DNA of 64,000 nucleotides from Pseudomonas versuta (GTDB lineage Bacteria; Pseudomonadota; Gammaproteobacteria; Pseudomonadales; Pseudomonadaceae), in NCBI RefSeq assembly GCF_001294575.1, contig NZ_CP012676.1, positions 1,116,001-1,180,000 on the forward strand. Reading direction: 5' to 3'. Positions within the stretch are counted from its first letter, which is position 1; each line of letters begins with the position of its first letter. Under the pieces are notes generated by a model, which had not been told where the DNA came from, ran no database searches, and saw only the letters and a list, made by a program, of their open reading frames with translations. The translations under genes and the position numbers were made by a program. Shown piece by piece: positions 14,396 through 31,185 of this stretch.

Positions 14396-14575
14396 GTGCA
14401 GCTTCCTTAAAACAGCATCGGCGTTGAGAGTGGAGCGTAGCTAAAGCAGCGCAAATTTGTAGTGGGCCAGTCAAGCCCTTGCTTGATAACCTCAGCACCC
14501 TTAAATTACGGGCACGCATGATCTCAGGTCATGCGCAGATCAATAAGTTCCAGTGATGGGCTACTCCAGAGGTGT

Positions 14576-15394: not shown

Positions 15395-15450
15395 ATTCTG
15401 GCCGGTGGTTCACGTCATATTGTCTGATGAAGTGTATTGGGCATCTGCAC

Positions 15451-15519
15451 AGCAGGAGCGAGCATGCCGTCATCGCGGATGCGGAATTAAAAAGCTCGCG
15501 AGCAAGCTCGCTCCTACAG
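15451..15519. repeat. imperfect REPIN
   Basis: The right arm AGCTCGCGAGCAAGCTCGCT with CCTACAGG is canonical; the left arm CAGGAGCGAGCATGCCGTCA is eroded after ten bases. It separates the binding-protein gene from convergent pvdS. Confidence 0.7.
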
Positions 15520-15537
15520 GGGGGGAGTGGGGGGCTG

Positions 15538-16086
15538 TCAGCGTCTTGCAAAGGTGTCGGGCTGGGTTCCCGACACTCTGCGGCAATGAACCAGCGCATC
15601 ACGAATCATGAAGTTCACCAGTGTCGGCGAGACACCCAATTGCTTGGCGATGTCCTTTTGCTGCACCCCGTGCAGACGGTACATTTCGAACGCATAGCGC
15701 GTGCGATTCGGCAGTTCGGTCAGCGCTACAGCGATGCGCTCAAGGGTCGAAAAGTTGATATGCGAGGTTTCCGGTGATGCGCCGTGAATGACCACATTCA
15801 AGCCTTCCTCTTCTGTGCCCGAATACTTCTGTTCGAGGGCCTGTTTGCGGTAATGGTCAATCGCCAGGTTGCGTACGATCTGAAACAAGTAACTCAGTTG
15901 CGCCTTGAATGAAGAAGTGATCTGCGGCGCTGACTGCAAGCGGAAGAAAGCATCCTGAACCACGTCTTCAGCCCTGGATCGGCAGCCGGTGATACGGGCT
16001 GCGATTTTGACCAGTGTCAGCCGATTATCTACAAAGGCTTGAAGTAAGGGTGAGTCGCACCTGCTTGTGGACACTTGTTCCGTCAT
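15538..16086 (-). CDS. pvdS: ECF sigma factor PvdS (pyoverdine sigma factor)
   Basis: A sigma-70 factor of the extracytoplasmic, iron-starvation type, 182 residues, very close to Pseudomonas PvdS. Region 2 reads VKIAARITGCRSRAEDVVQD and SYLFQIVRNLAIDHYRKQA. Region 4 reads LPNRTRYAFEMYRLHGVQQ, then KDIAKQLGVSPTLVNFMIRD, its DNA-binding helix-turn-helix. PvdS directs RNA polymerase to pyoverdine synthesis and related promoters. I start at the ATG at 16086 behind AGGTGA. A strong Fur box lies 77 bp upstream. Neither pvdL nor any other synthetase gene is next to it, unlike the arrangement recalled for P. syringae and many fluorescent strains. Confidence 0.92.
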   Translation of the reverse strand: MTEQVSTSRCDSPLLQAFVDNRLTLVKIAARITGCRSRAEDVVQDAFFRLQSAPQITSSFKAQLSYLFQIVRNLAIDHYRKQALEQKYSGTEEEGLNVVIHGASPETSHINFSTLERIAVALTELPNRTRYAFEMYRLHGVQQKDIAKQLGVSPTLVNFMIRDALVHCRRVSGTQPDTFARR

Positions 16087-16162
16087 GGAGATCACCTGCT
16101 GCAAATGAATGAGTGCAGCGGCTCGGGAGGCCGCGACACAGTTCGCAACAAACTAGGCTGAA

Positions 16163-16177
16163 TGATAATTATTGTCA
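16163..16177. promoter_or_regulatory. Fur box upstream of pvdS
   Basis: TGATAATTATTGTCA matches the 7-1-7 Fur palindrome TGATAAT-N-ATTATCA with a single mismatch. It lies in the pvdS promoter region, so pvdS should be shut off by iron-loaded Fur, as known in other Pseudomonas. Confidence 0.85.
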
Positions 16178-16299
16178 ATTGAGAAAGAGAATTAATGGCG
16201 CGGCTGGCAGCGGATTGAGACATCGCTCACATCGCTCGTAAATGCCTCTAAAACGCCACTATTGGCCGGACTAATGGTCTGAATCGGCACCGTACAAAC

Positions 16300-16357
16300 C
16301 TGTAGGAGCGAGCTTTCGCGCGAGCTGTTTGCTATTTCGCAAAGCTCGCTCCTACAG
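16300..16357. repeat. REPIN, shortened
   Basis: CTGTAGGAGCGAGCTTTCGC and AAGCTCGCTCCTACAG pair around a short loop. It lies just downstream of dsbG. Confidence 0.85.
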
Positions 16358-16368
16358 GCGTTCCGGGG

Positions 16369-17145
16369 TTATTTGGGACCGAGGATTTTTACCAGTTTGT
16401 CCGGCGAAGGTGCACCTTGCTGCTGCTGCAGGTTGCCTTGTTCGTCGAGGTAGAAAATCGCCGGGGTCGCTGACACATCGAGGTCGGTCATCAACTGTGC
16501 ATTGGCGTCCAGCTTGGCCTGGACGTCAGCCGGGATCTTGGTCAGCGGCTTGAGCTTGCTGGCTTTGCCGGCCTGCTCATGTTCGTGCAGGGCTTGCTGA
16601 GGGTCTTTGGCAGCCAGCAATGCGGCAGATTTTGCCGGGCTGTCTTCGCGGATGATGCCGACCATGATGTGGCGCAGTTGCACCTTGCCCGAATCAACCC
16701 ATGGCCGGGCCTGTTCCCAGAACATGTTGCAGTACGGGCAGTTCGGGTCGCTGAACAGGTAAACGATGCGCGGCGCATCTTTTTTGCCGTCGGCAATCCA
16801 GTTGCTCTTTTCCATATTGGCCCAGACCTGCTTGGCCATCGGCTCGTACACCAGCTTTTGCAGCGGTGCCAGGCTCAGGTCGTTGCCGTTGGCGTCATAC
16901 AAATTACCCACCAGTACGTTTTTGCCGTCAGGGGTCAGATACAGGGCCATGCCACGGTTCTGATACTGGGCGGCATAGCCATGCATGCCGCTGGGTGCGT
17001 CGAAACTGCCAATGATTTTTGCGCCCTTGGCTTCAATCTTCTTGATCGGAGCCGGCCATTCTTCAGCGTGCAGCAGGGGCGATTGCAGCAGGGCGGCGCC
17101 CAGCAGGGTGGTTACGCTCAGGTTTAGCAGTTTGCGGTTAAACAT
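16369..17145 (-). CDS. dsbG: thiol:disulfide interchange protein DsbG
   Basis: A periplasmic thioredoxin-fold protein of 258 residues with a signal peptide ending LLHA. The N-terminal DsbC/G-type dimerisation domain covers about residues 25-110. The active site FSDPNCPYCNMFW lies near residue 134, and the cis-proline loop appears as SATPAIFY near residue 227. DsbG keeps single periplasmic cysteines reduced, drawing electrons from DsbD. Its start overlaps the end of the upstream tlpA-like gene by 22 bp, and dsbD is two genes upstream, so reductant supply and client protein share an operon. AGGAAT precedes the ATG. This order corresponds to PA2476-PA2478 of P. aeruginosa as I recall it. Confidence 0.93.
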   Translation of the reverse strand: MFNRKLLNLSVTTLLGAALLQSPLLHAEEWPAPIKKIEAKGAKIIGSFDAPSGMHGYAAQYQNRGMALYLTPDGKNVLVGNLYDANGNDLSLAPLQKLVYEPMAKQVWANMEKSNWIADGKKDAPRIVYLFSDPNCPYCNMFWEQARPWVDSGKVQLRHIMVGIIREDSPAKSAALLAAKDPQQALHEHEQAGKASKLKPLTKIPADVQAKLDANAQLMTDLDVSATPAIFYLDEQGNLQQQQGAPSPDKLVKILGPK

Positions 17146-17996
17146 TTTTGCAGATTCCTAGCAGGGTCGGCCTGGTGGGCCGACATTGAATTGTTCTGAT
17201 CAAAGCTTTCCAGCGCGCGGGCCAGGCTGGCTTCTGACAGCTCGCCCAGGTGACTGCCCAGCAGGCGACCTTCAGGGCTGTAGAACAGGGTAGTCGGCAG
17301 GGCCATCGAGCCGACTTTTTGTGCCAGTTGGCCGCCGCTGTCGAACAGCACGTTGCTAAGGTTCAGACCCTGGGTCTCCAGGAAGGTGCTGACGCTCTGC
17401 ATGCTTTCGCCCTGATTAACGAACAGGAAGGTGATGTCCTGATGGTGATGCTGGGCGTTTTGCAGCACCGGCATTTCCCGCCGGCACGGCGGGCACCAGG
17501 TGGCCCACAGGTTGATCACCAGAGGGCCGCCCTGGTAGCTGCTCAATTGCACCGATTCGCCACTGGCATTGCGCAGCACGATTTCCGGCATGCGTGTTCC
17601 TTGCTCGTAGAGGCTGGACGAGAACGTGGCCAGCAGCCAGAACGCCAGGCCAGCGCCCAGCCCCCAGCCCAACGGGCGTCGCAGCCCCGGGCGACGCCAG
17701 CCCCAGATCAGCGCACCGACCACGACTGCCAGTAACCCCGGCCACAACACAAAACCACCGTCGCGCAGGTCGAGAATCTGCAGCAGGTCTTTCTGGAAGT
17801 AGCGCCAGTAGCTGATTACAAAGCCGATTCGGGCTACCAGCAAACCCAGCAAAAACAGGCTGAACAACGCTGACTCCGGGTTTTCGCCGCCGCGTTTGGC
17901 CACCCGCCACCCCACCAGCGTCGCCAGGGCGAGCGCCAGTATCAGCAGCAGGTGGTTGATGGCCAGGGCAAACGAACCAATGGTCAGGGTGAGCAT
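17124..17996 (-). CDS. membrane-anchored TlpA/redoxin-family thiol oxidoreductase
   Basis: A two-part protein of 290 residues. The first 120 residues hold four hydrophobic helices resembling the Lgt-like membrane domain. The rest is a periplasmic TlpA-type thioredoxin fold with active site WATWCPPCRREMPVL near residue 168 and a cis-proline in MALPTTLFY near residue 238. It probably passes electrons between DsbD and periplasmic partners such as DsbG. Its ATG directly follows the dsbD stop, and its end overlaps dsbG, so all three are translationally linked. It corresponds in position to PA2477. The exact client is unknown. Confidence 0.85.
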   Translation of the reverse strand: MLTLTIGSFALAINHLLLILALALATLVGWRVAKRGGENPESALFSLFLLGLLVARIGFVISYWRYFQKDLLQILDLRDGGFVLWPGLLAVVVGALIWGWRRPGLRRPLGWGLGAGLAFWLLATFSSSLYEQGTRMPEIVLRNASGESVQLSSYQGGPLVINLWATWCPPCRREMPVLQNAQHHHQDITFLFVNQGESMQSVSTFLETQGLNLSNVLFDSGGQLAQKVGSMALPTTLFYSPEGRLLGSHLGELSEASLARALESFDQNNSMSAHQADPARNLQKCLTANC

Positions 17997-19736
17997 TTAA
18001 AGGAGTTCCCGGGTGGCGTTCCAGTTATTCAAAAAGGTCTCGGCGTTGACTTCGCCGGTGATGCGTTGTGCGCGGCGCTCAACAGCGTCGGGACCGATCC
18101 AGATGAAACTGGGTGGCCCCGGCACTTGATAGCGGCCGAGCAATTCGCGGCTGGCGACATTATCGGCGGTCACGTCCAGACGCAACAGGCGCACACCTTG
18201 CAGGGCCTGCATCACCTGCGGTTTGGCAAACACCTGTTTCTCCATGACTTTGCATGACACACACCAGTCGGCGTAGTAATCCAGCAACACCCATTGCCCC
18301 TGCTCTTTGGCACTGGCCAGTTCGCGCTCCAGGCTGGCGGGGTCCTTGAGGGTGATAAAGGCATCATGGGCCGTGTTTGCGTTGCTGCTGGCGACTGTTT
18401 TGGCGGTATACACCTGTAACGGTTGCCACAGATCGGAGCCACCCCCGGCGGCTCCCACCAGCAACAGGCCGCCCCATAAACCCGCCAGCAGGCTCAACGG
18501 GTTGAACAGGGCCCTGGCGCGCAGGAACGTCTGCGCCTGTTGCCACAGGCTGCATGCCACCAGAATCAGCAGCACGCCCCACAGTCCGAGCCACAGGGAC
18601 TCGTCGAGCACCGGGCGGATCAGCAGCAGGGCAGTGCCCAGGAACAGGAAGCCGAACAGGCCTTTCATCAGGTTCATCCAGGCCCCGGGTTTGGGCAGGA
18701 AGCGACTGCCTACGGTGACCAGCAGCAATAGCGGCACCCCGATGCCGAGCCCCATGACAAACAGCACCAGGCCGCCTTGCACGGCATTGCCGCTTTGCGC
18801 GATGTACAGCAGGGCGCCTGCCAGCGGGGCGGTCATGCACGGGCCGACCAGCAAACCGGAGAGCGCGCCAAGAATGCCCGCGCCCAGCAGGCTGCCACCT
18901 TTGCGTCCGCGCCCGGCGTTTTCCAGCCGGTCACGCAGCGCTGCGGGCAGCTGCAATTCGAAGAAGCCAAACATGGGGAGCGACAACACGACAAACAGTG
19001 CGGCAAAACTGCCCAGCAACCAGGGCTGTTGCAGCAGTGCCTGCAAGTTGGCGCCCAGCAATGCGGCGAGTACGCCGAGCCCGGCATACACCAGCGCCAT
19101 GCTGATGACATAACTGCCCGCCACCGCAAAACCGCGTCCGGCGCTGGCACCGCTGCCCACTACCAGTCCGGCCAGAATCGGCAGCATCGGCAACGAGCAC
19201 GGGGTAAAGGCCAGTAGCAGGCCCAGGCCGAAAAACAGCAATAAACTCCAGCCCAGCGAACGCTGTTGCAAGCTGGCGGCCAGGGACTGGTCCTGAGCCT
19301 GGCCTTGCGCTGCGACCGGCGCAGTGCCGCCCAGATCCAGGGTCTGGCTTTGCGGCGGGTAGCACAGGCCGGCATCGGCACAGCCTTGCCAGCTGACTTT
19401 GACCTGGCCGCTGGCACCTGCCGGAATCAGCAATTCAACGCTGCCCCGATACACCTGGGTTTCGCCAAAAAACTCGTCACTGTGCTCCAGCCCTTGAGGC
19501 AACGCAGGCTTGTGTGCCTCGTCCAGGCCGTCAAACTTGAAGCGTTTCTGGTACAGGTAATAGGTATCGGCAATCTTCCAGTGCAGACGGGTTTCGCCGG
19601 ATTGCAGGGCTTCAGAGCTGAACTCGAAGGCTTTATTGGCAGGCAGAAAGTCGGGCTGTGCAAAAGGATCACCCGTGCCCTTGGCTTGAGCCAGGCCGGC
19701 GAAACACACCAGCAACAAAGTCATCAACAAACGCAT
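17997..19736 (-). CDS. dsbD: thiol:disulfide interchange protein DsbD
   Basis: The inner-membrane electron conduit from cytoplasmic thioredoxin to periplasmic DsbC/DsbG, 579 residues as usual. A signal peptide ends GLAQA. The N-terminal alpha domain has the cysteine pair in GCADAGLCYPP near residue 125. The central part has eight hydrophobic helices, with FTPCSLPMLP and VGPCMTAPLAGA holding the two membrane cysteines. The C-terminal gamma domain has DWCVSCKVME near residue 496. I use the ATG at 19736, preceded by AAGG, six codons inside the longest frame. It is divergent from a two-component system, an arrangement seen also at PA2478-PA2480. Confidence 0.94.
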   Translation of the reverse strand: MRLLMTLLLVCFAGLAQAKGTGDPFAQPDFLPANKAFEFSSEALQSGETRLHWKIADTYYLYQKRFKFDGLDEAHKPALPQGLEHSDEFFGETQVYRGSVELLIPAGASGQVKVSWQGCADAGLCYPPQSQTLDLGGTAPVAAQGQAQDQSLAASLQQRSLGWSLLLFFGLGLLLAFTPCSLPMLPILAGLVVGSGASAGRGFAVAGSYVISMALVYAGLGVLAALLGANLQALLQQPWLLGSFAALFVVLSLPMFGFFELQLPAALRDRLENAGRGRKGGSLLGAGILGALSGLLVGPCMTAPLAGALLYIAQSGNAVQGGLVLFVMGLGIGVPLLLLVTVGSRFLPKPGAWMNLMKGLFGFLFLGTALLLIRPVLDESLWLGLWGVLLILVACSLWQQAQTFLRARALFNPLSLLAGLWGGLLLVGAAGGGSDLWQPLQVYTAKTVASSNANTAHDAFITLKDPASLERELASAKEQGQWVLLDYYADWCVSCKVMEKQVFAKPQVMQALQGVRLLRLDVTADNVASRELLGRYQVPGPPSFIWIGPDAVERRAQRITGEVNAETFLNNWNATRELL

Positions 19737-19899
19737 CTTTAAAACCTTAAGCAATCACAAGTGGCGCTACAGTGCTGGCAACCCATTAACTGATCATTAA
19801 CCGCCGTACAGCCTGGTGACCCACCATTGGCTCTTTGGCGGCATAATCGGCCCTTAATCCCGGCGCTTTTTAATTGGCCACATTTACGTGGGTATCAGC

Positions 19900-20577
19900 A
19901 TGCATGTACTGGTTTGCGAAGACGACGAACTGATTGCCAGCGGCATTGTGGCAGGGCTCACGGCTCAAGGCCTGACGGTGGAACACGTCGGCACGGCCGC
20001 AGCGGCCAGGGCCATGCTCAAAGTGGCAGAGTTCGATGTGATGGTGCTCGATCTTGGCCTGCCGGATGAAGACGGCCTCAAGCTGCTGCAACAGTTGCGT
20101 CAGCAAGGCTTCGAGCTGCCGGTATTGGTGCTTACCGCGCGCGACTCGGTGACGGACCGGGTCGATGGCCTGCAAGCCGGAGCCGATGATTACCTGCTTA
20201 AACCCTTTGATCTGCGCGAGCTCGCAGCCCGTTTGCACACCCTGTTACGCCGGGTGGCCGGGCGCAGCGTCAATCTGATCGAGCATGGTCAGTTGAGCTA
20301 TGACCCCAGCAGCCGCGTGACCCTGCTTGCCGGTCAGCCGGTGGACCTTTCGCGTCGCGAGCAGGCGCTGTTGCAAGCCTTGCTGCACAACCGTGGCCGG
20401 GTCCTGTCCAGCGAGCAACTCAAGGACAGCATCTATGGCTTTGGCGACGAACTGGAGAGCAATGCCTTGAACGTGCATATCCATCACCTGCGCCGAAAGC
20501 TGGGCAATGGCATCGTTGAAACCGTTCGTGGTCTGGGCTATCGCCTGGGCCCGGCCGACGGTGTCGGGCAGCCATGA
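19900..20577 (+). CDS. OmpR-family response regulator
   Basis: A two-domain response regulator of 225 residues. The receiver domain has the acidic pair (CEDDE near residue 6), the phospho-acceptor Asp in VMVLDLGLPDEDG near residue 50 and the Lys in LLKPFD near residue 101. The C-terminal winged helix carries LSRREQALLQALL and ESNALNVHIHHLRRKLG, typical of OmpR/PhoB DNA-binding domains. It overlaps the sensor kinase by 4 bp and is divergent from dsbD-tlpA-dsbG, so the Dsb operon is a likely target. The ATG at 19900 is chosen over a GTG four codons upstream; neither has a strong ribosome-binding site. Confidence 0.9.
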   Translation: MHVLVCEDDELIASGIVAGLTAQGLTVEHVGTAAAARAMLKVAEFDVMVLDLGLPDEDGLKLLQQLRQQGFELPVLVLTARDSVTDRVDGLQAGADDYLLKPFDLRELAARLHTLLRRVAGRSVNLIEHGQLSYDPSSRVTLLAGQPVDLSRREQALLQALLHNRGRVLSSEQLKDSIYGFGDELESNALNVHIHHLRRKLGNGIVETVRGLGYRLGPADGVGQP

Positions 20578-21899
20578 TGAGCATGCGACTGCGTTTGAGC
20601 CTGACCATCGGCTCGGCGTTCGTGCTGGTCTGGGCCCTGGCCGCAGCCTGGATGCTCAGCGATCTGCGCCAGCAAATGATGTTCTCCCTTGATCAACGAC
20701 TGGTGGCTTCGGCGCGGATGGTGGCCGGGCTGCTGGAGCAGTTGCCGCAATTGCCGGTCAAGGGCGAGGGGACCCATTTCAGTGCCGAACAACTGACCAT
20801 CCCAGGCGGCATGGCCTGCCAGGTCAGTTCTTTGCGCGGCGAGATTCTGGCCCGCAGTCACAACAATCCGGACCAGCCGATGCAGTCCGCGGCGGCCGGT
20901 TTTCATGATCAGACCATCGATGGCGCCACCTGGCGCACCTTCACCCTGGATCGCGGCGATGTGCGGATCACCACCGCGGACCGCCAGGTTGAGCGCGAAG
21001 CGCTGAACCTCTCGGTATTGCTCGCGGCTTCGGTGCCGGTGGGCATGGCGTTGATGGTGTGCCTGCTGCTGTTGTGGCTGGGCATCGGCCAGGGGCTGGC
21101 GCCACTGCAGCGCATGCGTGCCGCCCTGATGCGGCGCGATGCCGATTCGCTGCAACCCTTGCAGATAGAACCGCTGCCCAGCGAACTGAAACCGCTGCTC
21201 GACTCCCAGAACCAGTTATTTGCACGCATCGCCAAAGCCATTGAGCGTGAGCGGCGCCTCACAGGTGATGCCGCCCATGAACTGCGCAGCCCCCTGACGG
21301 CGATCAAAACCCACCTGCAGGTGGCGCGCATGACCGATGGCGCCGCGCGTGAGCAGTCCCTGGCCCACGCTGAAACCGCGGCTGACCGCTTGCATCGCAC
21401 TCTCGAACAGTTGCTGTTGCTGGCGCGGGTGGAGGGCAGCCTGTCCTTCGATGACGGCGTGCAGTGTTCGGCCGAGCAAGTGGCACGGCTGGCGATCCAT
21501 GATGCGGCGAGTGGCGCGGCTGAGCGCATTGACCTGCAACTGCCTGAAGGGCTGCCGGGCACTGCACTGCAAGTGCCTTCGGTACTGGCGATTGCCGCAC
21601 TGCGCAATTTGCTGGATAACGCCCTGCGCCATACCCCGGCTGATACCCAGGTTGAATTGTCGCTGCGGGTTGAAGGCCCTTACGTGCATTTTGTGGTGCG
21701 CGACCACGGCCCGGGCATCCCGCCAGAAACCCTGCAGCACATGACCCAGCGCTTCTGGCGCAATGGCAACAGCAATGGCTGCGGCCTGGGCCTGGCCATC
21801 GTGCAAGCGATAGTCGAGCGTTGTGGCGGCGACCTGAGTTTTGATAGTCGGGCCGACGGTTTGCGGGTTGAACTGCGCATGCCATTGCAAACCGCGTGA
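20574..21899 (+). CDS. sensor histidine kinase
   Basis: The membrane sensor partner of the preceding regulator, 441 residues. One hydrophobic helix lies near residues 10-30, a periplasmic sensing loop of about 110 residues follows, and a second helix is near 155-175. The phospho-acceptor motif TGDAAHELRSPLTAIKTHLQ is near residue 235. The ATPase domain shows NLLDNALRHTP (N box), DHGPGIP (G1) and NGCGLGLAIV (G2). The signal is unknown; the divergent Dsb genes suggest periplasmic redox or metal stress. The ATGA overlap with the regulator implies coupled translation. Confidence 0.92.
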   Translation: MMSMRLRLSLTIGSAFVLVWALAAAWMLSDLRQQMMFSLDQRLVASARMVAGLLEQLPQLPVKGEGTHFSAEQLTIPGGMACQVSSLRGEILARSHNNPDQPMQSAAAGFHDQTIDGATWRTFTLDRGDVRITTADRQVEREALNLSVLLAASVPVGMALMVCLLLLWLGIGQGLAPLQRMRAALMRRDADSLQPLQIEPLPSELKPLLDSQNQLFARIAKAIERERRLTGDAAHELRSPLTAIKTHLQVARMTDGAAREQSLAHAETAADRLHRTLEQLLLLARVEGSLSFDDGVQCSAEQVARLAIHDAASGAAERIDLQLPEGLPGTALQVPSVLAIAALRNLLDNALRHTPADTQVELSLRVEGPYVHFVVRDHGPGIPPETLQHMTQRFWRNGNSNGCGLGLAIVQAIVERCGGDLSFDSRADGLRVELRMPLQTA

Positions 21900-21907
21900 C
21901 CTGTCTA

Positions 21908-21993
21908 TGGGAGCTGGCTTGCCACCGATACTGGCGCCTCGGACTATCTGAACGTGCCAGTTGACCCCATCGCTGGCAAGCCAGCTCCCACAC
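21908..21993. repeat. inverted repeat of a second REP type
   Basis: GGGAGCTGGCTTGCCA at the left pairs with TGGCAAGCCAGCTCCCA at the right across a loop of about 50 bases. It follows the kinase gene. Confidence 0.8.
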
Positions 21994-22163
21994 GGTAAGG
22001 GGCTGGCTTTTTTTCAACGGTTTTATTGATCTGAATCTTGTCGCTCAGCGATTTTTCTGGAACGATCCCCCCCTCCAATAAACACCCGCAACAGCGCTTT
22101 AACAGGGGCTTGTGCAGTATTTTCGGCGCTGCAAAAGCGTACTGTTTTCCCTTTTTCCTGGCC

Positions 22164-22182
22164 GATAAACGCCGTGTTTATC
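22164..22182. promoter_or_regulatory. palindrome upstream of cycA
   Basis: GATAAAC-GCCGT-GTTTATC is a perfect 7-bp inverted repeat with a 5-bp spacer, 48 bp before the cycA ATG. It could be a repressor operator or a small leader hairpin; the regulator is not identifiable here. Confidence 0.45.
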
Positions 22183-22229
22183 CGGTTTGCGGACCCCGTA
22201 AAAGACCAAGAACTCAAGGTAGAAAAATA

Positions 22230-23636
22230 ATGAAGGATTCAACGCTTGATCACCGACCTGACGGGGAAGAACCAGAGCTCAAACGCAGTCTGTCCAATCG
22301 TCACATTCAACTGATCGCCATTGGCGGAGCCATCGGTACGGGCCTGTTCATGGGCTCGGGCAAAACCATCAGCCTCGCCGGTCCCTCGATCATCTTTGTC
22401 TACATGATCATCGGTTTCATGCTGTTTTTCGTCATGCGCGCCATGGGCGAATTGCTTTTATCCAACCTCAATTACAAGTCTTTCATAGATTTTTCAGCTG
22501 ACCTGCTGGGCCCCAGAGCTGGCTACTTTACCGGCTGGACATACTGGTTTTGCTGGATCGTGACAGGCATTGCCGATGTCATCGCCATCTCCGGCTACAC
22601 CCAGTTCTGGTTCCCCGACATCCCCCTGTGGTTGCCTGCAATTGCTTGTGTGGCCTTACTGCTGTCGCTGAATCTGATCACGGTGAAAATGTTCGGTGAG
22701 CTGGAGTTCTGGTTCGCCATGATCAAGATCGTGGCTATTTGCGCGTTGGTCTGTACCGGCCTCTACATGGTGGTTACCGCTTTTCAGTCGCCGACCGGCA
22801 ACACGGCTTCGGTGGCCAACCTGTGGAATGACGGCGGCATGTTCCCCCATGGCTTGATGGGCTTCTTCGCCGGCTTTCAAATTGCTGTCTTTGCCTTTGT
22901 CGGCATTGAGCTGGTAGGTACAACCGCTGCCGAAACCAAGAACCCGGAACGCAATTTGCCACGGGCGATCAATTCAATCCCGCTGCGCATCATCATGTTT
23001 TATGTGTTCGCGTTGATTGCGATCCTGGCCGTTACTCCATGGCGCGATGTAGTCGCCAACAAAAGCCCCTTCGTCGAACTCTTCATGCTTGCCGGTCTGC
23101 CGGCTGCCGCAGGCATCATCAACTTTGTGGTACTGACCTCTGCGGCCTCATCGGCCAACAGCGGCGTGTTCTCCACCAGCCGGATGCTGTTCGGCCTGGC
23201 ACTGGAGGGCGAAGCCCCGCGCAAGTTCAAGATCCTTTCCCGGCGCGCAGTGCCCTCCAACGGCCTGATCTTTTCCTGCATCTGTCTGTTGGCGGGTGCG
23301 CTGGTGATTTATCTGGTGCCGAACCTGATGGATGCATTCACCCTGATCACCACTGTCTCGGCGACCCTGTTCATGTTTGTGTGGACGATGATCCTGCTGT
23401 CCTACCTGGCGTATCGCAAAAAAAGCGATCACCTGCACCAGGCATCGCACTACAAAATGCCGGGTGGCAAGGTCATGGTCTGGGTTTGCCTGACCTTCTT
23501 TGTCTTCATCCTGGTATTGCTTGCCCTGGAGGACGATACCCGTCAGGCGCTGTACCTGGTGCCGGTCTGGTTCGTGGTGCTGGGCCTGGCCTACCGTTCA
23601 GTACGCCGCAACAAGATGTTGGCCCACGACCGCTAA
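22230..23636 (+). CDS. cycA: amino acid permease, D-serine/D-alanine/glycine transporter type
   Basis: An inner-membrane APC-family proton symporter of 468 residues with twelve hydrophobic helices. SNRHIQLIAIGGAIGTGLFM near residue 25 is the conserved first helix of AAT-type permeases, and AETKNPERNLPRAINSIP lies in the loop after helix six. The sequence most resembles CycA, which imports glycine, D-alanine and D-serine, although other AAT members cannot be excluded. I start at 22230, following AAGGTAG; the longer frame back to 22038 adds 64 unlike residues. A palindrome lies in the leader. It is flanked by unrelated repeats on both sides. Confidence 0.85.
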   Translation: MKDSTLDHRPDGEEPELKRSLSNRHIQLIAIGGAIGTGLFMGSGKTISLAGPSIIFVYMIIGFMLFFVMRAMGELLLSNLNYKSFIDFSADLLGPRAGYFTGWTYWFCWIVTGIADVIAISGYTQFWFPDIPLWLPAIACVALLLSLNLITVKMFGELEFWFAMIKIVAICALVCTGLYMVVTAFQSPTGNTASVANLWNDGGMFPHGLMGFFAGFQIAVFAFVGIELVGTTAAETKNPERNLPRAINSIPLRIIMFYVFALIAILAVTPWRDVVANKSPFVELFMLAGLPAAAGIINFVVLTSAASSANSGVFSTSRMLFGLALEGEAPRKFKILSRRAVPSNGLIFSCICLLAGALVIYLVPNLMDAFTLITTVSATLFMFVWTMILLSYLAYRKKSDHLHQASHYKMPGGKVMVWVCLTFFVFILVLLALEDDTRQALYLVPVWFVVLGLAYRSVRRNKMLAHDR

Positions 23637-23639
23637 CGT

Positions 23640-23755
23640 GTAGTCGCTGACAAGGAACGAGGCTGCGATCGGGTGCGCAGCAGTCGTAAAAATGAGTGCT
23701 CAGGTTTTGCGGGCATTGCCCGATCGCAGCCTCGTTCCTCGACAGCGACTACAAG
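23640..23755. repeat. long inverted repeat (gtagtcgctga / aggctgcgatcggg type)
   Basis: TGTAGTCGCTGACAAGGAAC at the left is matched by GAACGAGGCTGCGATCGGG-type arms and their inverse CCCGATCGCAGCCTCGTTCC ending GCGACTACA at the right. The arms are over 30 bp with a loop near 45 bp. A decayed relative is at 48314. It lies between convergent cycA and fpvF and may also act as a bidirectional terminator. Confidence 0.8.
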
Positions 23756-23757
23756 GG

Positions 23758-24669
23758 TTACGTGGCCGTGGTCAGCACTTTCACAATCGCGTCGACAGTG
23801 CTTTGCAGTGCCGTCACCGGGTCGGCGCCATCGGCGCTGACTACCACCAGTTCGCTGCCGCCTTCAGTCACCGCTGCCTGCAACGCTGCGCACGGTGGGC
23901 GATGATCCAGCACCAAGGCTACGTCATTGTCCTTCAGGGTCTGGCTCAAGGCCTTTAGTGCCTGGGGCGTCCATGGCTCATCGCCTTTGTGCTGTACCTC
24001 GACCCGCTCCAGGTTCAGGCCGCCGGTCAAGTAATCCAGTCGGTCCGACAAGCTCACCACCGTCAGGTTGTCAGCCCCGGCCAGCCTGGCCTCGCTGTCA
24101 GCACTGAGTTTGAGCAGTCGCTGCTTGAGGTTGGCAAGGTTGGCTTCAATCTGCGTTTTGGCGGACGGTGCCAGGCGCACCAGGTCCGCCGCAATCACGT
24201 CAGCCATGCGCCCCATATTGTTACTGGCCAGCCAGGGCTGGCTGTTCAGCCCGTCGGGGTGATTGCCCGGCTGCAGCGCGATGCCCGGCAAGCTGCCGTC
24301 CACCGGGCGCGCGGCGTCGACTTCGACGATACGGATATTGCTGCGCCGCGCCATCGGGTAGAGCGGGTCGTCGCGCCACACCGAGCGCAGACCGATCACT
24401 GCATCGGCATTGACCGCCAGCTGCTGCAGGGCCGGTGCGCCGCGACCACTGAAGTAAGCACTTTGCCGACTGCCGGGCAGATTGGCTGCGGCGGCCCGCT
24501 CCAGGGTGACGTTGCTGTCTTTGACCAGCAACTGGCCCAGGCCGTAAGTAATCGGCAGGCTGGCGAGGATTCGCAGCGGTGCACCGCCAGCCGTGTCGGC
24601 CGCCTGCAGCAGGGTGCTGAGCAGGCCGGCGATGGCCAGTGCCAGAGTCAGTTTGCGTAGAGTAAACAT
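23758..24669 (-). CDS. fpvF: FpvF-type periplasmic binding protein
   Basis: A secreted ZnuA-like cluster A-1 binding protein of 303 residues with a signal peptide ending LLQAA. It is the last gene of the eight-gene set and follows fpvE directly. In P. aeruginosa FpvC and FpvF together bind ferripyoverdine in the periplasm while iron is released. Compared with metal-binding relatives it lacks the usual first metal histidine: the segment NLPGSRQSAYFSGRGAPAL stands where an (N/D)PH-type motif normally lies. This fits binding of the siderophore or partner rather than free metal. The gene order makes the assignment strong even though sequence alone is less specific. Confidence 0.85.
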   Translation of the reverse strand: MFTLRKLTLALAIAGLLSTLLQAADTAGGAPLRILASLPITYGLGQLLVKDSNVTLERAAAANLPGSRQSAYFSGRGAPALQQLAVNADAVIGLRSVWRDDPLYPMARRSNIRIVEVDAARPVDGSLPGIALQPGNHPDGLNSQPWLASNNMGRMADVIAADLVRLAPSAKTQIEANLANLKQRLLKLSADSEARLAGADNLTVVSLSDRLDYLTGGLNLERVEVQHKGDEPWTPQALKALSQTLKDNDVALVLDHRPPCAALQAAVTEGGSELVVVSADGADPVTALQSTVDAIVKVLTTAT

Positions 24670-25569
24670 TTATCCAATATTCCCTTTCAGGCTGGGTACC
24701 ACGCCACGGGCGATGGCTGCGAGGGCGAAAGCGATACCGGCCACCAGAATGATTGCCGCGCCGGACGGAATGGGCAGGTCGAACACGATAGGCAGCAAGA
24801 TTCCGCACAAGGTGCTGACCGTTGCGATCAATACCGAAATCCAGAAAAAGCCTTTGAGCGACTGGCTGAGCAAGCGTGCCGCCGCCGCCGGAATCACCAG
24901 CAGGGCGCCCACCAGAATGGCTCCGATCACCTTGACCGCCGCTACGGTAATCAGGGTCACCAGAATCACGAACAGGTAGTCCAGGGTCTTGACCGCGACC
25001 CCGCGCACGGCAGCCAGTTGCGGGTTGAAGCTGGCGAGCATGATGCGGTTGTACAGCGGCAGACTCAGGCCAAGCACCAGTGTGCCGACGATCGCCAGTA
25101 CCAGCAGGTCGTTTCCGTTGACCGTCAATACTGAGCCGAACAGTACGTTTTCAAGGATGTGCACGTTGATCTTGCCCGCCAGAATCAGCAGCAGGCTGGC
25201 GCCCAGTGCCAGCGACACGGACAGGAACACGCCGATCAGGGTGTCCGGGGCCAGGCCCGTTCGGTTGCGCAGGTAATTGAGTGAAATGCCGAACAACAGG
25301 CAATAGCCGAACAGGCTGCCATAAGGGCCGGTGTAGGGTTCGCCGAGCAAAATGCCGATGGCCACGCCCGTCAGCGCGGCATGCCCGACGGCTTCGGAGA
25401 AAAAGGCGAAACGCTTGACCACCACCAGGGTGCCCAGGCCGCCCAGCACAGGGCCGATCAATAACCCGGCAAGCACCGCGTTGACCACAAAGCCATAAGC
25501 CAGGATTTCCGGCAGGTAGCCGGCCGAGGCCCAGCCCTGGACCATCAGACGGAACGCTTCATAGCTCAT
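24670..25569 (-). CDS. fpvE: FpvE, ABC-3-type metal transporter permease
   Basis: An inner-membrane permease of 299 residues with eight or nine hydrophobic helices, in the ABC-3 (ZnuB/MntB) family. KRFAFFSEAVGHAALTGVAI near residue 53 is the conserved cytoplasmic coupling region of this family. It should form the transmembrane part of FpvCDE, which takes up iron freed from pyoverdine in the periplasm. The start codon overlaps the end of fpvD by one base and fpvF begins one base after its stop, so translation is tightly coupled. Confidence 0.9.
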   Translation of the reverse strand: MSYEAFRLMVQGWASAGYLPEILAYGFVVNAVLAGLLIGPVLGGLGTLVVVKRFAFFSEAVGHAALTGVAIGILLGEPYTGPYGSLFGYCLLFGISLNYLRNRTGLAPDTLIGVFLSVSLALGASLLLILAGKINVHILENVLFGSVLTVNGNDLLVLAIVGTLVLGLSLPLYNRIMLASFNPQLAAVRGVAVKTLDYLFVILVTLITVAAVKVIGAILVGALLVIPAAAARLLSQSLKGFFWISVLIATVSTLCGILLPIVFDLPIPSGAAIILVAGIAFALAAIARGVVPSLKGNIG

Positions 25570-26321
25570 CAGGCAACACTCCCGCGAGTCTTGGGATGGG
25601 TCGAAAACAGATTCAGCAACCGCTCCGGGCTGAGGGTCTGCTCTGGCGGGCCGTCGAACAGCACCTGGCGATTGAGCCCGGTGACGCGTTCGGCCAGGCG
25701 CTTGACGGCGGCCAGGTCGTGCTCGATCCAGACCACTGTCACTGCGTTCGCGTGCCAGTGCGCCAGCAAGCGTTCAAATACCTGGGCCCCGGCTTCATCC
25801 AGCGCCGACATCGGCTCATCCAGAACCAGCAATTGCGCAGCCGGAATCAAGCCCTGGGCCAGCAACACGCGCTGGCGCTCACCGCCCGACAACGCGCCCA
25901 TGCGCCGCTTGCGCTTGTCCTGCATGCCCACCCGTTCCAGCGCCTCGCCAATGGCCGGGGCGACCTTGCGCGACAGCCCCATAAAGGCCGGCCGGCGCTG
26001 GCACATGGCTGCCATAAAGTCGTCGACGGTCATCGGCAGGCCGCGATCAAACTCCAGGGCCTGGGGCACGTAGCCGATCACCCCCGGCTCTGCGGGCCAG
26101 TTCAGGCACAGACGACCCTGATGCGGCATTTGCCCCAGCAGGGTTTTGATCAGCGAGCTTTTGCCGCCGCCGTTGGGGCCGACCAGTGCATGCACACTGC
26201 CGGGGCGAATGCTGAAACTGACGTGGTCGAGAATCAGGGTGCGACCCAGGGTCAGGGACACCTGATCAAACTCGACTCCGGGCCCCGTGGCCGTAACGCT
26301 CAGGTGTTCAGCGGCGCTCAT
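25569..26321 (-). CDS. fpvD: FpvD, ABC transporter ATPase
   Basis: The ATP-binding subunit of the FpvCDE transporter, 250 residues. Walker A is GPNGGGKSSLIKTLLG near residue 49, the Q-loop is GYVPQ, the signature LSGGERQRVLLAQ lies near residue 145, Walker B is LLVLDEPMSALD, and the H-loop His is in VVWIEHDL. It overlaps the upstream fpvC by four bases (ATGA) and runs into fpvE. The family (ZnuC/MntA-like) normally carries divalent metals; the operon context points to iron from ferripyoverdine. Confidence 0.92.
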   Translation of the reverse strand: MSAAEHLSVTATGPGVEFDQVSLTLGRTLILDHVSFSIRPGSVHALVGPNGGGKSSLIKTLLGQMPHQGRLCLNWPAEPGVIGYVPQALEFDRGLPMTVDDFMAAMCQRRPAFMGLSRKVAPAIGEALERVGMQDKRKRRMGALSGGERQRVLLAQGLIPAAQLLVLDEPMSALDEAGAQVFERLLAHWHANAVTVVWIEHDLAAVKRLAERVTGLNRQVLFDGPPEQTLSPERLLNLFSTHPKTRGSVA

Positions 26322-27256
26322 GCTCCGGCCTCCTGAATGGCCCTGACCACGGTGTCGAGGTTGCCGGTCATTTCTTTTTCATACTTGTCGGCGCTGTAGT
26401 CACCATAGGAAATGTGCGACAGCGGGTACAGCTTGACCCCGGACTCGCGTTGAATGGTGTCGACATAGCTCGAGGGGAAATCCATCTCGGAGAAGATCAC
26501 TTTCACATCCAGTTCCCGCAGTTGATCGATGGTTTTCTTCAACTGGCTGGGGCTTGGCTCGATGCCATGCGCCGGCTCCACCACGGCGGTGACTTCGAGG
26601 CCGAACTCGCGCAGCAGGTAGTCATAGGCGGCGTGTACCGTGGCCACCCGCAAGTCCGCGTTGGGCGCCTCGGTCAGCTTGGCCAGCGCGGCAGCGCGCA
26701 TCTGGCGCAGGCGTTTGCCGTAGGCGCGGGCATTGGCGGTGTAGGTTTTGGCGTTGACCGGGTCGAGCTTGCCCAGTTCACGGGCGATGTTATTGACCTG
26801 GGCAATAGAGGCGCTGATCGAGAGGAAAGTATGGGGGTTGACCACCTTGCCCGCACCCCGGGCGGCATTGCCGGTAGCTGCCAGCAGCGGCACGTTCTGA
26901 TTGGCTTCGATGACCGCGATCTGCGGCTTCTCGCTGGCTTCAATCATGCGGTCGGCAAAGTCATCATGGCCCACGCCATTGAGCACTATTACATCCAGCG
27001 TGCCGATGCGCTTGATGTCTTCGGCGCGGGGCTCATAGGCATGGGGATTGAAACCGGCCGGGATCAGCGGCACCACTTCGGCCTTGTCGCCGACGATATT
27101 GGCCACGTAGCTGTAATAAGGGTGCAGGGTGATGCCGATACGCAGCGGCTTGGCCAGTGGAGCAGGAGCGTCGGCCCAAGCCAGAGGAGCAAGGCAAAAC
27201 GCCAACAGGCCGGCGAGCAGCAGGCCGCGGCGGCGCAAAACAGATGAAGTGGACAT
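26318..27256 (-). CDS. fpvC: FpvC, metal-binding periplasmic protein
   Basis: A ZnuA/MntC-type solute-binding protein of 312 residues. A signal peptide ends APLAWA. Candidate metal ligands are the His residues in NPHAYEP near residue 77 and HTFLS near residue 147, plus a His in TVHAAYDYL and an acidic residue in ISYGDYSA-type segments late in the chain. In P. aeruginosa FpvC receives the iron stripped from pyoverdine. I start at 27256, where the signal peptide begins; the longer frame back to 27409 overlaps fpvK and is rejected. A 26-bp gap separates it from fpvK. Confidence 0.92.
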   Translation of the reverse strand: MSTSSVLRRRGLLLAGLLAFCLAPLAWADAPAPLAKPLRIGITLHPYYSYVANIVGDKAEVVPLIPAGFNPHAYEPRAEDIKRIGTLDVIVLNGVGHDDFADRMIEASEKPQIAVIEANQNVPLLAATGNAARGAGKVVNPHTFLSISASIAQVNNIARELGKLDPVNAKTYTANARAYGKRLRQMRAAALAKLTEAPNADLRVATVHAAYDYLLREFGLEVTAVVEPAHGIEPSPSQLKKTIDQLRELDVKVIFSEMDFPSSYVDTIQRESGVKLYPLSHISYGDYSADKYEKEMTGNLDTVVRAIQEAGA

Positions 27257-27282
27257 GTCGAGCCTCAGGTAAAACGGTGGGT

Positions 27283-27837
27283 TCAATGCCGATGCTGGCG
27301 AGTAACCCCGGCATCGAATTGCGCGATCACTTGCTGCCACCCGTTCTGATTGAGCGCAGCATCGCTGAAGTCGGCCGGGGCGCTGGGGCCGGGGTTGCGG
27401 TTGAGCCACACATCCGGCTGCGCGCCGATACGCATCAGGAACGAGCCCGCCACCTCAGGGGCCGCGCTGATGCCCAGATAGGCCTGGCCCCCCAGCAATT
27501 GCCAGGCGTGGCTGCCACGGCTGACGGAGCTGGCATCGATGGCAAAAGGTGCAAAGCCTTCGTCGGCCAGGTGCGCGGGCAGGGGCAAGGCGCCGGACTC
27601 TTCTTTGAGCAGCAGGATCTCGTCCAGCGTCACTCGCAGGTCGGCGTAGAGGCCTTGTTCGGCGGCGTTCAGATCGCGCCGTGCATCCAGCTGATGGGCG
27701 GCCACTGAAGTCATTTCCTGTGACTCATGACGCCAGGCCACCACGGATCCGGCGACGGCCAGAATCAGCAGGCACAACAGCAACACGTACAGCGTTTCAT
27801 GCCCGGCACCGGCGGGGCGTACGACTTGAGTGGTCAT
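27283..27837 (-). CDS. fpvK: FpvK, DUF6162 membrane-anchored protein
   Basis: A protein of 184 residues with one N-terminal hydrophobic helix (residues 16-34) followed by a periplasmic domain of unknown fold. It matches FpvK by size, topology and position: fourth gene of the fpvGHJKCDEF set. FpvK is part of the inner-membrane complex that helps FpvG reduce ferripyoverdine in P. aeruginosa; its own chemistry is not known. The C-terminus is rich in Asn/Gln and ends with His residues. It overlaps fpvJ by four bases. Confidence 0.82.
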   Translation of the reverse strand: MTTQVVRPAGAGHETLYVLLLCLLILAVAGSVVAWRHESQEMTSVAAHQLDARRDLNAAEQGLYADLRVTLDEILLLKEESGALPLPAHLADEGFAPFAIDASSVSRGSHAWQLLGGQAYLGISAAPEVAGSFLMRIGAQPDVWLNRNPGPSAPADFSDAALNQNGWQQVIAQFDAGVTRQHRH

Positions 27838-28169
27838 GGGGCCTCGATGTCGGCTTGATCGATTTCAACGATGTGACCGGGGCCGGCGTCGAACAGCACG
27901 TAAAATTCGGCATCAGGGCGCTTGAAGGTCATGCTTGAGTCCGCCCCCAGCTTGCCCGGTACCAGGATGGTTTCGTCGTAGCCGATCACGTCCAGGGTGA
28001 CCCCCGGGGCGCCGCTGCCATCGGAAAACCCGCCGGTACAGCGGATTTGCCCGTCTTTGACGCTCTTGCACTCGCACATCGGGTTGTGGGCCAGGGCCTG
28101 ACCGCTCAGGCCCAGTAACGCCATCAACCCTGCGGCCATGACCGGATGTTTAAACAGTCGCGAATTCAT
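27834..28169 (-). CDS. fpvJ: FpvJ, small periplasmic protein
   Basis: A 111-residue secreted protein with a signal peptide ending GQALA. The mature start HNPMCECKSVKDGQIRCTGG has three cysteines and a histidine in a short span, which could bind metal or form disulfides. The rest is a beta-rich domain (TLDVIGYDETILVPG). Position and size identify it as FpvJ, a helper of the FpvG reductase in the pyoverdine system. Start and stop overlap fpvH and fpvK by four bases each. Confidence 0.82.
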   Translation of the reverse strand: MNSRLFKHPVMAAGLMALLGLSGQALAHNPMCECKSVKDGQIRCTGGFSDGSGAPGVTLDVIGYDETILVPGKLGADSSMTFKRPDAEFYVLFDAGPGHIVEIDQADIEAP

Positions 28170-28708
28170 TGTTTAGCACCTCGTTGGGCCAGCCAGGCCA
28201 CGGTGGCCGGTGAAGCCTGACTCAGGGGAATGGACGCCTGATGCATCGAGCCGTCCCACCCTTCAAGGGTGATCCACAGGTCGGCGTCGGCTTTGGTGCG
28301 CTCGGGGATCGGCAGCGTGGCGCCCATGCGATACGGCGTACCGAAAAAAATCACCCCGGCGGCCCGCAGGCTGCGTGGCTTGCCAATGCGCAGGTAAGCG
28401 GCCTTGACCTGATCGATGGAGCTGTCGCTCAGCGCCGCGTTGAAGCTCTTCATGTAGCCTGCCGGGCCATCCGGTCGCGGGCCTTCGTTGCGCAGTTCAG
28501 CCAGTTGCAGGCTCCACGGCCCGACCTGCACCGTGCCCACGTCGCGCTCGCCCAGCCCGCTGTCACCGCGAAACAGCGACGCATCGGCAAAGTACTTGGG
28601 CATAAATCCCAGCGGCACCAACAGCAGCAGGATGTTTATGTGAAAGCGCCATTTGTGCCACAGCCGGCTCAGGGTGGAAGGGGGCTGTGCAGTCACTGCC
28701 TTGCTCAT
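28166..28708 (-). CDS. fpvH: FpvH, membrane-anchored protein
   Basis: A 180-residue protein with a single N-terminal hydrophobic helix (about residues 22-40) and a periplasmic domain. It is the second gene of the fpv set, between the PepSY reductase fpvG and fpvJ, with four-base overlaps on both sides. In P. aeruginosa FpvH, FpvJ and FpvK support FpvG in removing iron from pyoverdine. No catalytic motif is visible. The assignment rests mainly on gene order. Confidence 0.82.
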   Translation of the reverse strand: MSKAVTAQPPSTLSRLWHKWRFHINILLLLVPLGFMPKYFADASLFRGDSGLGERDVGTVQVGPWSLQLAELRNEGPRPDGPAGYMKSFNAALSDSSIDQVKAAYLRIGKPRSLRAAGVIFFGTPYRMGATLPIPERTKADADLWITLEGWDGSMHQASIPLSQASPATVAWLAQRGAKQ

Positions 28709-29913
28709 GCATTGGCCTCTGCAGGTTGTTTTTTACGAGGGCTGGTGGCCAGGCTTGCTGCCGGGCGCGCGGATTTATGGCTGCGTTTAAGGGCGTTGGC
28801 GGTGGCCAGTGCGGTACGTTTGGTCCAGATCAGCAGGCCGCTCAACACCATCATGCTCAGGACCAGGCCGAAGAAGAACCAGATCAGCTTGACCCACAGG
28901 CCGCCGAAGTCGCCGGTGTGCAGCGGGCGCATCGACTCGGTCACCAGCTCCAGGCCGGAGCGGTCGGCGATCATCCGCGAGCCTTCAATCGCGCCGTTGT
29001 ACGGGTTGATTTCGGCGGTCTGGAACAGCAGCGGGTACCAGCCCGGGCCGCCCACTTCGATGTGGCCGTAGGCATTGCCGGGCAGGCTGACAAAGCTGGC
29101 TTCGAGGCCGGGAATCTTCTGGGCGGCAATCTTCACTGCCTGGTCGAGGCTGATCTGCGGCGCGGGCTGACCGTTGGCCATGATCGGCACATCCTGGCGC
29201 GCCACTACCGGCGGGATGCCTTCTGTGGAGATTGAAATCTGGTTATCAAACATAAAGGCCTGAATCAGAAACCACAGGCCGGTGATGGAAATCACCGCAA
29301 TAAACCAGATCGACCAGATGCCGCACAGGCGATGGAAGTCGCCCCAGAAAATCCGCGCCCCGTGCTTGAGGCGCAGGTTGGGTTTGAAAAAGCCTTTCCA
29401 GAATTTCTTATAGACCACCAGCCCGGTCACCAGCGACGCCAGCAGTGGCAAGCCCAGGAATGACACCAGATACCAGCCCCAGCTGTAGCCATTGGTAAAC
29501 GGCACCAGCCACCAGCCGTGCAAGGCGCGGGTGAATTGCTTGAAGTTAAAGCTCGGGCTTTCACCCTGTATCGCCCCGGTGTACGGGTTGATATAGAGCG
29601 AAGGCGAGCGCCCGTCGGGGTAAACCACATCGGCGACCAGCGCAAAATGCGACTCGTCGGGGCGGCTGATCGACTGCACTGCCAGTTTGGGTTCGGCTGT
29701 GTGAATCGCGCTGAGCACCTGCTCATAAGTGAGCAGCGGCGCGTCATCCGACGGTTGGGTGGCGCGGGCTTGAGGGGTGGCCAGCCACACAATCTCCTGG
29801 CTGACCACGGCCAGGGTTCCGGTGACACAGACAATCAGCACAAAAAACCAGATGGGCAGCGTTAGCCAACTGTGGACCAGGAACCAGAGCTTTGAACGGG
29901 ACTTTTTGGACAT
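28705..29913 (-). CDS. fpvG: FpvG, PepSY-domain inner-membrane ferripyoverdine reductase
   Basis: A 402-residue PepSY-associated membrane protein with four main hydrophobic segments (about 12-35, 140-165, 195-220 and 340-365) and two periplasmic PepSY-like regions. Histidines next to helices (LVHSWLTLP, ALHGWWLVPF, FHRLCGIWS) are candidate haem or metal ligands, as in related siderophore reductases. FpvG reduces Fe(III)-pyoverdine in the periplasm so that FpvCDE can import the iron and the siderophore can be recycled. I start at 29913 (MSKKSRSK), four codons inside the frame. It is the first gene of the operon; an imperfect palindrome at 29958 lies in its promoter region. Confidence 0.9.
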   Translation of the reverse strand: MSKKSRSKLWFLVHSWLTLPIWFFVLIVCVTGTLAVVSQEIVWLATPQARATQPSDDAPLLTYEQVLSAIHTAEPKLAVQSISRPDESHFALVADVVYPDGRSPSLYINPYTGAIQGESPSFNFKQFTRALHGWWLVPFTNGYSWGWYLVSFLGLPLLASLVTGLVVYKKFWKGFFKPNLRLKHGARIFWGDFHRLCGIWSIWFIAVISITGLWFLIQAFMFDNQISISTEGIPPVVARQDVPIMANGQPAPQISLDQAVKIAAQKIPGLEASFVSLPGNAYGHIEVGGPGWYPLLFQTAEINPYNGAIEGSRMIADRSGLELVTESMRPLHTGDFGGLWVKLIWFFFGLVLSMMVLSGLLIWTKRTALATANALKRSHKSARPAASLATSPRKKQPAEANA

Positions 29914-29957
29914 GGGGAACGGCAAACTCGCGGCTGAGCGGGTGTGTAATCGCCATT

Positions 29958-31079: not shown

Positions 31080-31152
31080 GGCAGCACCTAAATAAGCAGG
31101 AGTCATTAGATAGAACGACGCGTGCTGCGCTTAATTTACAGGCTGTTGCCTG

Positions 31153-31174
31153 CATCGCGGGCAAGCCCGCGATG
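31153..31174. repeat. short REP hairpin
   Basis: CATCGCGGGCAAGCCCGCGA with TG completes a perfect self-complementary 22-mer (9-bp stem). It lies between mntH and the flavoreductase gene, both on the minus strand, and may end mntH transcription. Confidence 0.6.
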
Positions 31175-31185
31175 AGGAGGGCTGT

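Follow-up and report, generated by a model that had tools for sequence, protein, structure and literature searches.

Strains in which the machinery of pyoverdine synthesis is missing while pvdS and a receptor are kept have been described as structural non-producers (Butaite et al. 2017, PMC5583256), and pyoverdine non-producers have also been reported as 264 strains (13.7 %) of one collection (PMC11734721) and as five strains without the synthetases, one of them a P. frederiksbergensis (PMC11366639). A further related system is that of lactuchelin, described as a lipopeptide siderophore whose cluster encodes five non-ribosomal peptide synthetases (NRPSs) and whose peptide contains seven amino acids (PMC12904278, 2026); its carriers are reported to include P. 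lactucae, P. versuta and P. paraversuta and to be without a pyoverdine cluster, PvdS is required for its production in P. lactucae, where a pvdS insertion (one insertion barcode) abolished siderophore production, and the mutual exclusion of pyoverdine and lactuchelin is restated in a later paper (PMC13037486). Here, we analysed a 64,000-nucleotide stretch of Pseudomonas versuta (the window; bases 1116001 to 1180000 of NZ_CP012676.1, a single contig of 5,149,788 bases with a genome completeness score of 100 %), in which pvdS and the ferripyoverdine iron-release operon fpvGHJKCDEF are retained and the genes for pyoverdine synthesis are not. P. versuta resembles the structural non-producers in that synthesis genes are missing and both pvdS and an FpvA-type receptor are present, and the retention of pvdS and fpv after the loss of synthesis is mostly a fresh case of a known phenomenon; it differs from the published description in that the positions of four gaps could be established by comparison with a collinear relative, the analysis also follows the Fpv operon, and the genome carries a replacement siderophore cluster.

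Profile searches of the window showed that the stretch from pvdS to fpvGHJKCDEF (15538-29925) and its flanks contain no gene for pyoverdine synthesis, and confirmed the gene content, order and coordinates on which the original prediction was based, namely, pvdS with its Fur box and the complete fpv operon within 15 kb, separated only by dsbG-tlpA-dsbD, a two-component system and a permease (Table 1). The order of the fpv genes is identical to that published for this operon, whose product FpvF is described as a pyoverdine-binding protein in P. aeruginosa (PMC6954188). The Fur box, located approximately 70 bases ahead of pvdS, represents the sole match of at least 14/19 positions across the window.

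The former position of the synthesis genes is apparent from genome G208 (one contig; FpvG 90 % identical), in which pvdS, dsbG-tlpA-dsbD, the regulator and kinase genes, the fpv operon and SIP follow each other in the same order as in the window, and in which synthesis genes occupy four gaps that are empty of them in P. versuta: a PvdY-like acetylase gene ahead of pvdS; a pvdG-like thioesterase gene together with pvdL in the interval from pvdS to dsbG; pvdH adjoining fpvF; and, beyond SIP, two large NRPS genes and an esterase gene. The DNA alignment blocks end 4 to 132 bases from the missing genes, with the exception of the fpvF side of pvdH, where G208 carries an additional 1.2 kb. A palindrome resembling a repetitive extragenic palindromic (REP) sequence within the pvdG-pvdL gap suggests a repeat-mediated deletion, REP-like sites also being found elsewhere in the window. 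The G208 locus differs further in lacking cycA and mntH at these places and in a 7.6-kb insert between fpvG and SIP (C1:1732766-1740234), which on visual inspection contains a VgrG-like gene of a type VI secretion system and neighbouring genes. In P. cerasi (L070), PvdH is likewise encoded beyond fpvF of the fpv operon, and PvdL directly after PvdH, with neither dsb genes nor a two-component system separating the two. These two genomes bear out the statement in the original prediction that the interval carries pvdG, pvdL and pvdH in other strains, G208 possessing all three (pvdG-like in the first case) between pvdS and fpvF. A PvdH gene beyond fpvF was also observed in P. helleri (L038) and strain 7P_10.2 (L039), together with a large open reading frame (ORF) upstream of SIP that is NRPS-like in L039, and pvdH was present in 63 of 80 fpvF loci, some of the remaining 17 being incomplete.

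Table 1. Features of the P. versuta locus, in window positions
Feature	Positions	Strand	Remarks
Orphan iron-starvation (IS) box TAAAT-N16-CGT	15392-15415	plus	G208 counterpart precedes the PvdY-like acetylase gene missing here
Site of lost PvdY-like acetyltransferase gene	15428-15540	unstranded	~1.1 kb in G208; Acetyltransf_8
pvdS, iron-starvation extracytoplasmic function (ECF) sigma factor, intact	15538-16086	minus	NF005448, 289.6 bits (cut-off 190)
Fur box upstream of pvdS	16158-16176	plus	14/19 vs consensus of PMC2235872
Site of lost pvdG-pvdL	16276-16364	unstranded	~14 kb in G208; REP-like palindrome at 16303-16354
dsbG	16369-17145	minus	Profile search
tlpA-like gene	17124-17996	minus	Profile search
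dsbD	17997-19754	minus	Profile search
Response regulator of two-component system	19888-20577	plus	Profile search
Histidine kinase of two-component system	20574-21899	plus	Profile search
Amino-acid permease (originally predicted as cycA)	22038-23636	plus	Best model: D-serine/D-alanine/glycine transporter
Site of lost pvdH	23637-23757	unstranded	In loci L039 and L042, pvdH sits between fpvF and cycA
fpvGHJKCDEF, complete operon for ferripyoverdine iron release and recycling	23758-29925	minus	Profile searches
fpvF	23758-24669	minus	ZnuA family
fpvE	24670-25569	minus	Profile search
fpvD	25569-26321	minus	Profile search
fpvC	26318-27409	minus	ZnuA family
fpvK	27283-27837	minus	DUF6162
fpvJ	27834-28169	minus	Named by position
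fpvH	28166-28708	minus	No Pfam match; named by position
fpvG	28705-29925	minus	PepSY_TM
SIP, siderophore-interacting FAD reductase, next to fpvG	30135-31106	minus	Profile search
IS box upstream of SIP	31115-31138	minus	Strict
Site of two lost NRPS genes and esterase gene	31119-32542	unstranded	~24 kb in G208; occupied by mntH here
mntH, beyond SIP	31186-32511

Across the whole 5.15-Mb contig, all 12 condensation-domain matches fall within one cluster (2,381,656-2,408,762), which also contains the strongest match to the ornithine hydroxylase family PF13434 (368 bits), the three other matches being weak (52, 32 and 21-23 bits). PvdH was not found in the closed genome, the best match being 35 % identical as opposed to 73-100 % for true orthologues, and a 500-residue piece of PvdL gave no genome-wide match at 1e-130. 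The alternative left by the original prediction, namely, that the synthesis genes reside elsewhere in the genome, could draw on the precedent of SBW25, whose pyoverdine genes are described as scattered over seven regions (PMC2235872), and on the 4104-residue NRPS of the 2.38-Mb cluster, which exceeds the cut-off of NF004282 (4213 vs 4090 bits), a model also matched by true PvdL. That score is, however, summed over 4 stretches of a protein which has no acyl ligase and shares 40 % identity with the PvdL of G208; the P. cerasi PvdL (2587 residues), by contrast, scores 5322 bits in one stretch and is 77 % identical to its G208 counterpart. NF004282 is thus not specific to PvdL, because an NRPS other than PvdL passes its cut-off; the remaining NRPSs of the cluster score 1098 and 2715 bits (two proteins) and 918 bits (1365 residues), with none listed for the 1046-residue protein. 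As a candidate pyoverdine cluster, the 2.38-2.41 Mb region was rejected on these identities, the missing acyl ligase and the lack of a PvdL match. Since neither PvdL nor PvdH nor any other NRPS cluster is encoded, the pyoverdine synthetases are absent from the genome: the biosynthetic block has been lost, as the original prediction envisaged, and not moved, a relative having kept the genes in the matching gaps. Relocation, the likelihood of which we regard as negligible, is refuted except for the case of a plasmid that carries the genes and is not part of the assembly.

The cluster at 2.38 Mb encodes five NRPSs (1490, 1046, 2576, 4104 and 1365 residues), the line of which begins with acyl-AMP ligase, thiolation, condensation and TauD domains, continues with seven further adenylation domains and ends in a thioesterase. 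Surrounding or within it are genes for a stand-alone TauD, FecR, a TonB receptor, a cyclic-peptide exporter, ornithine hydroxylase, acetyltransferase, thioesterase, FhuF and an FhuB/C/D-type transporter. The cluster thereby matches the lactuchelin list in the ltcA exporter, ltcB thioesterase, ltcC hydroxylase, ltcI ornithine hydroxylase, ltcJ acetyltransferase, FhuBCD, FhuF and the TonB receptor, the ltc letters having been assigned from the published gene list and the likeness to the P. lactucae cluster being judged on composition. P. versuta encodes, in agreement with its published listing as a carrier, its own lactuchelin-type siderophore cluster; it shares this composition and the lack of a pyoverdine cluster with the lactuchelin producers as described in PMC12904278, to which the remnant pvd locus and the promoter boxes discussed below are additions of the present analysis. 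The first NRPS is 94 % identical to that of P. paraversuta and occurs at 88 % identity or more in four of 398 genomes of the genus, while 16 cluster proteins were recovered in order in full (16/16) in P. versuta and P. paraversuta and as 14/16 in genomes G319 and G412, the two proteins unmatched there being FecR and the receptor. The gap between ltcB and ltcA measures 818 bases in P. versuta, approximately 1.8 kb in P. paraversuta, 220 in G319 and 435 in G412, and in P. versuta appears by eye to be filled with repeated palindromic REP-like copies (C1:2412750-2413430).

Among named genomes, an FpvF search placed P. paraversuta closest (91 %), followed by NKUCC02_KPG, P. endophytica, P. helleri, P. 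psychrophila and P. saxonica, with P. weihenstephanensis, P. bubulae, P. fragi and P. lundensis further down the ranking; these relatives we take to be the P. fragi group. The suspicion, voiced from the window alone, of a non-fluorescent food-spoilage pseudomonad fits these nearest relatives. The gene order of P. paraversuta is identical to that of the window locus, and P. fragi, of the same group, carries the same remnant locus and reportedly produces no siderophore (Champomier-Verges 1996); unlike P. versuta, its genome (G011) is without the lactuchelin cluster, the first NRPS being likewise absent from P. bubulae, NKUCC02 and P. endophytica. P. fragi (L150 20560-21612) and P. bubulae (L151 1164784-1165827, genome coordinates) possess an extra ORF of approximately 350 residues between the response regulator gene and dsbD.

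Putative PvdS-type promoters were sought as IS boxes of the consensus TAAAT-N16-CGT (PMC2235872). Four boxes are present in the window, compared to approximately 1.7 expected by chance from base composition. The box ahead of SIP was strict in every one of the 13 fragi-group loci that contain SIP, of which five come from non-producers (five more loci have no SIP), and is conserved although its spacer varies; it lies close to the assumed SIP start, and the true start may sit further in. In the lactuchelin cluster, all four lactuchelin genomes examined exhibit a strict box before ltcI and ltcJ and a one-mismatch box before ltcA and ltcB, with differing spacers. For P. versuta, two of 14 upstream regions contain a strict box (0.03 expected; 0/2000 shuffles); when one mismatch is tolerated, the count rises to five (0.78 expected; 1/2000 shuffles), the fifth being that of fhuD, which lacks conservation in G319 and G412. 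No ltc IS boxes are reported in the searched literature on lactuchelin and PvdS-dependent lipopeptides, supplements aside, and the words "promoter", "motif" and "consensus" have 0 occurrences in the main text of PMC12904278. Candidate PvdS-type promoters on a replacement siderophore constitute a useful new lead.

To gauge how often synthesis has been lost, 199 genomes of the genus were sampled for PvdH (E up to 1e-200), FpvG (E up to 1e-80) and PvdS (E up to 1e-40). PvdH was found in 138 and FpvG in 152 genomes, 136 possessing both, 16 FpvG only, 2 PvdH only and 45 neither. From the 16 FpvG-only genomes, G096 (full-length PvdL frame) and G128 (a 4305-residue acyl-ligase NRPS) were dropped, whereas G017, with a 57 % match to the PvdL piece in a 3186-residue frame taken as another NRPS, was kept. 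The resulting 14 genomes, including P. versuta, have FpvG without PvdH and PvdL; four keep PvdS, and in ten (G017, G059, G079, G092, G141, G158, G159, G175, G188 and G212) PvdS was not found either, which hints at an Fpv role outside pyoverdine. Both PvdH and PvdL are missing from six fragi-group genomes, again including P. versuta, and PvdS is present in each of them. A 12-gene tree places P. endophytica among producers (support 99-100) and nests P. frederiksbergensis AS1 and G054 within a different clade of producers (support 98-100), while a single shared loss for P. versuta and P. fragi is poorly supported either way (51-58). By parsimony, at least four losses would have occurred, each ending with pvdS near dsbG, pvdL gone and fpv kept.

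From the losses, intact retained genes, lactuchelin-type cluster and conserved boxes demonstrated here at the level of sequence, we propose that the locus is a remnant of a pyoverdine locus, that lactuchelin serves as the replacement, that PvdS is kept as an iron-starvation sigma factor and that Fpv serves foreign pyoverdines, a reading which we consider probable. The synthesis genes once embedded in the locus were cleanly lost, and pyoverdine would have been replaced by lactuchelin, from the cluster approximately 1.25 Mb away; PvdS, still behind its Fur box, would be kept because it drives lactuchelin genes (through the ltcA, ltcB, ltcI and ltcJ boxes) and SIP, and the Fpv operon would have been retained for the periplasmic removal of iron from the pyoverdines of neighbours. 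We infer that PvdS acts at the boxes in P. versuta, that lactuchelin is produced and that foreign pyoverdines are used. For the more general proposal, in which PvdS is an iron-starvation sigma factor with exchangeable cargo, the lactuchelin operons being placed directly on PvdS promoters with the SIP box and the Fpv uptake side retained, we judge the prospects to be evenly balanced. If true, pvdS would have outlasted the four or more losses owing to a regulon that extends beyond pyoverdine, and the fact that pyoverdine and lactuchelin exclude each other would amount to an exchange within a single regulon. The analysis maps which of the pyoverdine genes disappeared, the sites they had occupied and what was retained, and it supplies a candidate reason for the presence of PvdS in non-fluorescent pseudomonads, namely, further PvdS-type promoters, that of SIP in the fragi group and those of lactuchelin in one branch.

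Several observations weigh against this proposed replacement. The published evidence for pvdS is that single barcode in P. lactucae (PMC12904278), and pvdS is also retained in four genomes that have no lactuchelin cluster (P. fragi, P. bubulae, NKUCC02 and P. endophytica), so that lactuchelin cannot explain retention there and the SIP/Fpv side must be of value in itself, most simply for foreign pyoverdines. The lactuchelin cluster has its own FhuBCD and FhuF and would thus have no need of Fpv, and its FecR and receptor genes were matched in only two of the four lactuchelin genomes within the stretches compared. With regard to the boxes, the shuffle test was run after they had been spotted, the ltcI box lies inside the coding end of ltcH, such that its conservation may be partly coding, no box with at most one mismatch precedes ltcC, ltcD, fhuB, fhuC or the receptor gene in the four lactuchelin genomes, and no strict box precedes fpvG in P. 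versuta. The sole PvdS relative of G412, moreover, is only 62 % identical and is accompanied by FecR and an FpvA-like receptor (C137:16430-16975), though the ltc boxes are conserved; another sigma factor may use them in that genome, and a true pvdS is not always kept.

Alternative accounts of the retained genes were considered. That they represent a decaying relic, to which the missing synthesis genes and the orphaned box at 15392 might point, is already disfavoured and very unlikely: all reading frames are intact, the SIP box is conserved despite its varying spacer, and the ratio of nonsynonymous to synonymous substitution rates (dN/dS) is low for pvdS, fpvG, fpvC and fpvF. For pvdS, values of 0.008 to 0.052 in 6 non-producer pairs indicate purifying selection, and those of fpvG and fpvF lie in nearly the same range as in producer pairs, although fpvC reaches 0.114 in one non-producer pair as opposed to at most 0.069 in producer pairs; such pairwise values also cover the time before synthesis was lost. 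P. versuta could instead be a pure pyoverdine pirate, in which PvdS and Fpv serve only the pyoverdines of neighbours and no siderophore is produced. Such a lifestyle would suit the retention of pvdS and fpv in all six fragi-group non-producers, four of which are without the lactuchelin cluster, the SIP box kept in 5/5 non-producers with a SIP locus, the presence of FpvA-like receptors and the published structural non-producer type (PMC5583256), but not the lactuchelin-type cluster with its IS boxes, and we deem it improbable. While the original prediction is upheld as to the loss, its suggestion of reliance on pyoverdines made by others is not supported as a sole dependence, since with its own lactuchelin-type cluster P. 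versuta need not depend on the siderophores of others. A non-fluorescent strain with pvdS need not be a pure siderophore cheat, and that label, if given to P. versuta from pvdS and receptors alone, is probably wrong.

The third account, in which Fpv is kept for iron release from other hydroxamate siderophores, perhaps lactuchelin, and not from pyoverdine, we regard as possible but unlikely. FpvG belongs to a reductase family described as also serving other siderophores (PMC10866019), the ten of 14 genomes with FpvG and without PvdH, PvdL and PvdS carry Fpv without other signs of pyoverdine, and the relatives of FpvA include FhuE and FauA; the lactuchelin cluster, however, has its own FhuBCD and FhuF, and FpvF binds pyoverdine in P. 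aeruginosa (PMC6954188). For two FpvA-like receptors of P. versuta (L030 and L029), the best solved structure by sequence is FpvA (630.8 and 671 bits), followed by FauA (522.8 and 524.5 bits), which makes the foreign-pyoverdine use assumed in the replacement reading plausible, related receptors taking other hydroxamates. The number of FpvA-like receptors, tried as a mark of cheating, was uninformative, as P. versuta (5) and the other fragi-group non-producers (7-9) overlap with producers (1-10). The receptor gene of L030 (2350-6576; C1 approximately 1289350-1293576) follows, by eye, sigma-factor-like and FecR-like ORFs, and its product is 86-88 % identical in six fragi-group genomes and at best 47 % in P. 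paraversuta.

Adjoining pvdS in the window is a gene (14531-15394) whose product resembles a periplasmic solute-binding protein, the G208 homologue matching Phosphonate-bd. Apart from two exceptions, one in which the contig ends before the gene and G128, which is without it at that place, such a gene was located near pvdS in 10 of 12 annotated pvdS loci, from producer and non-producers alike.

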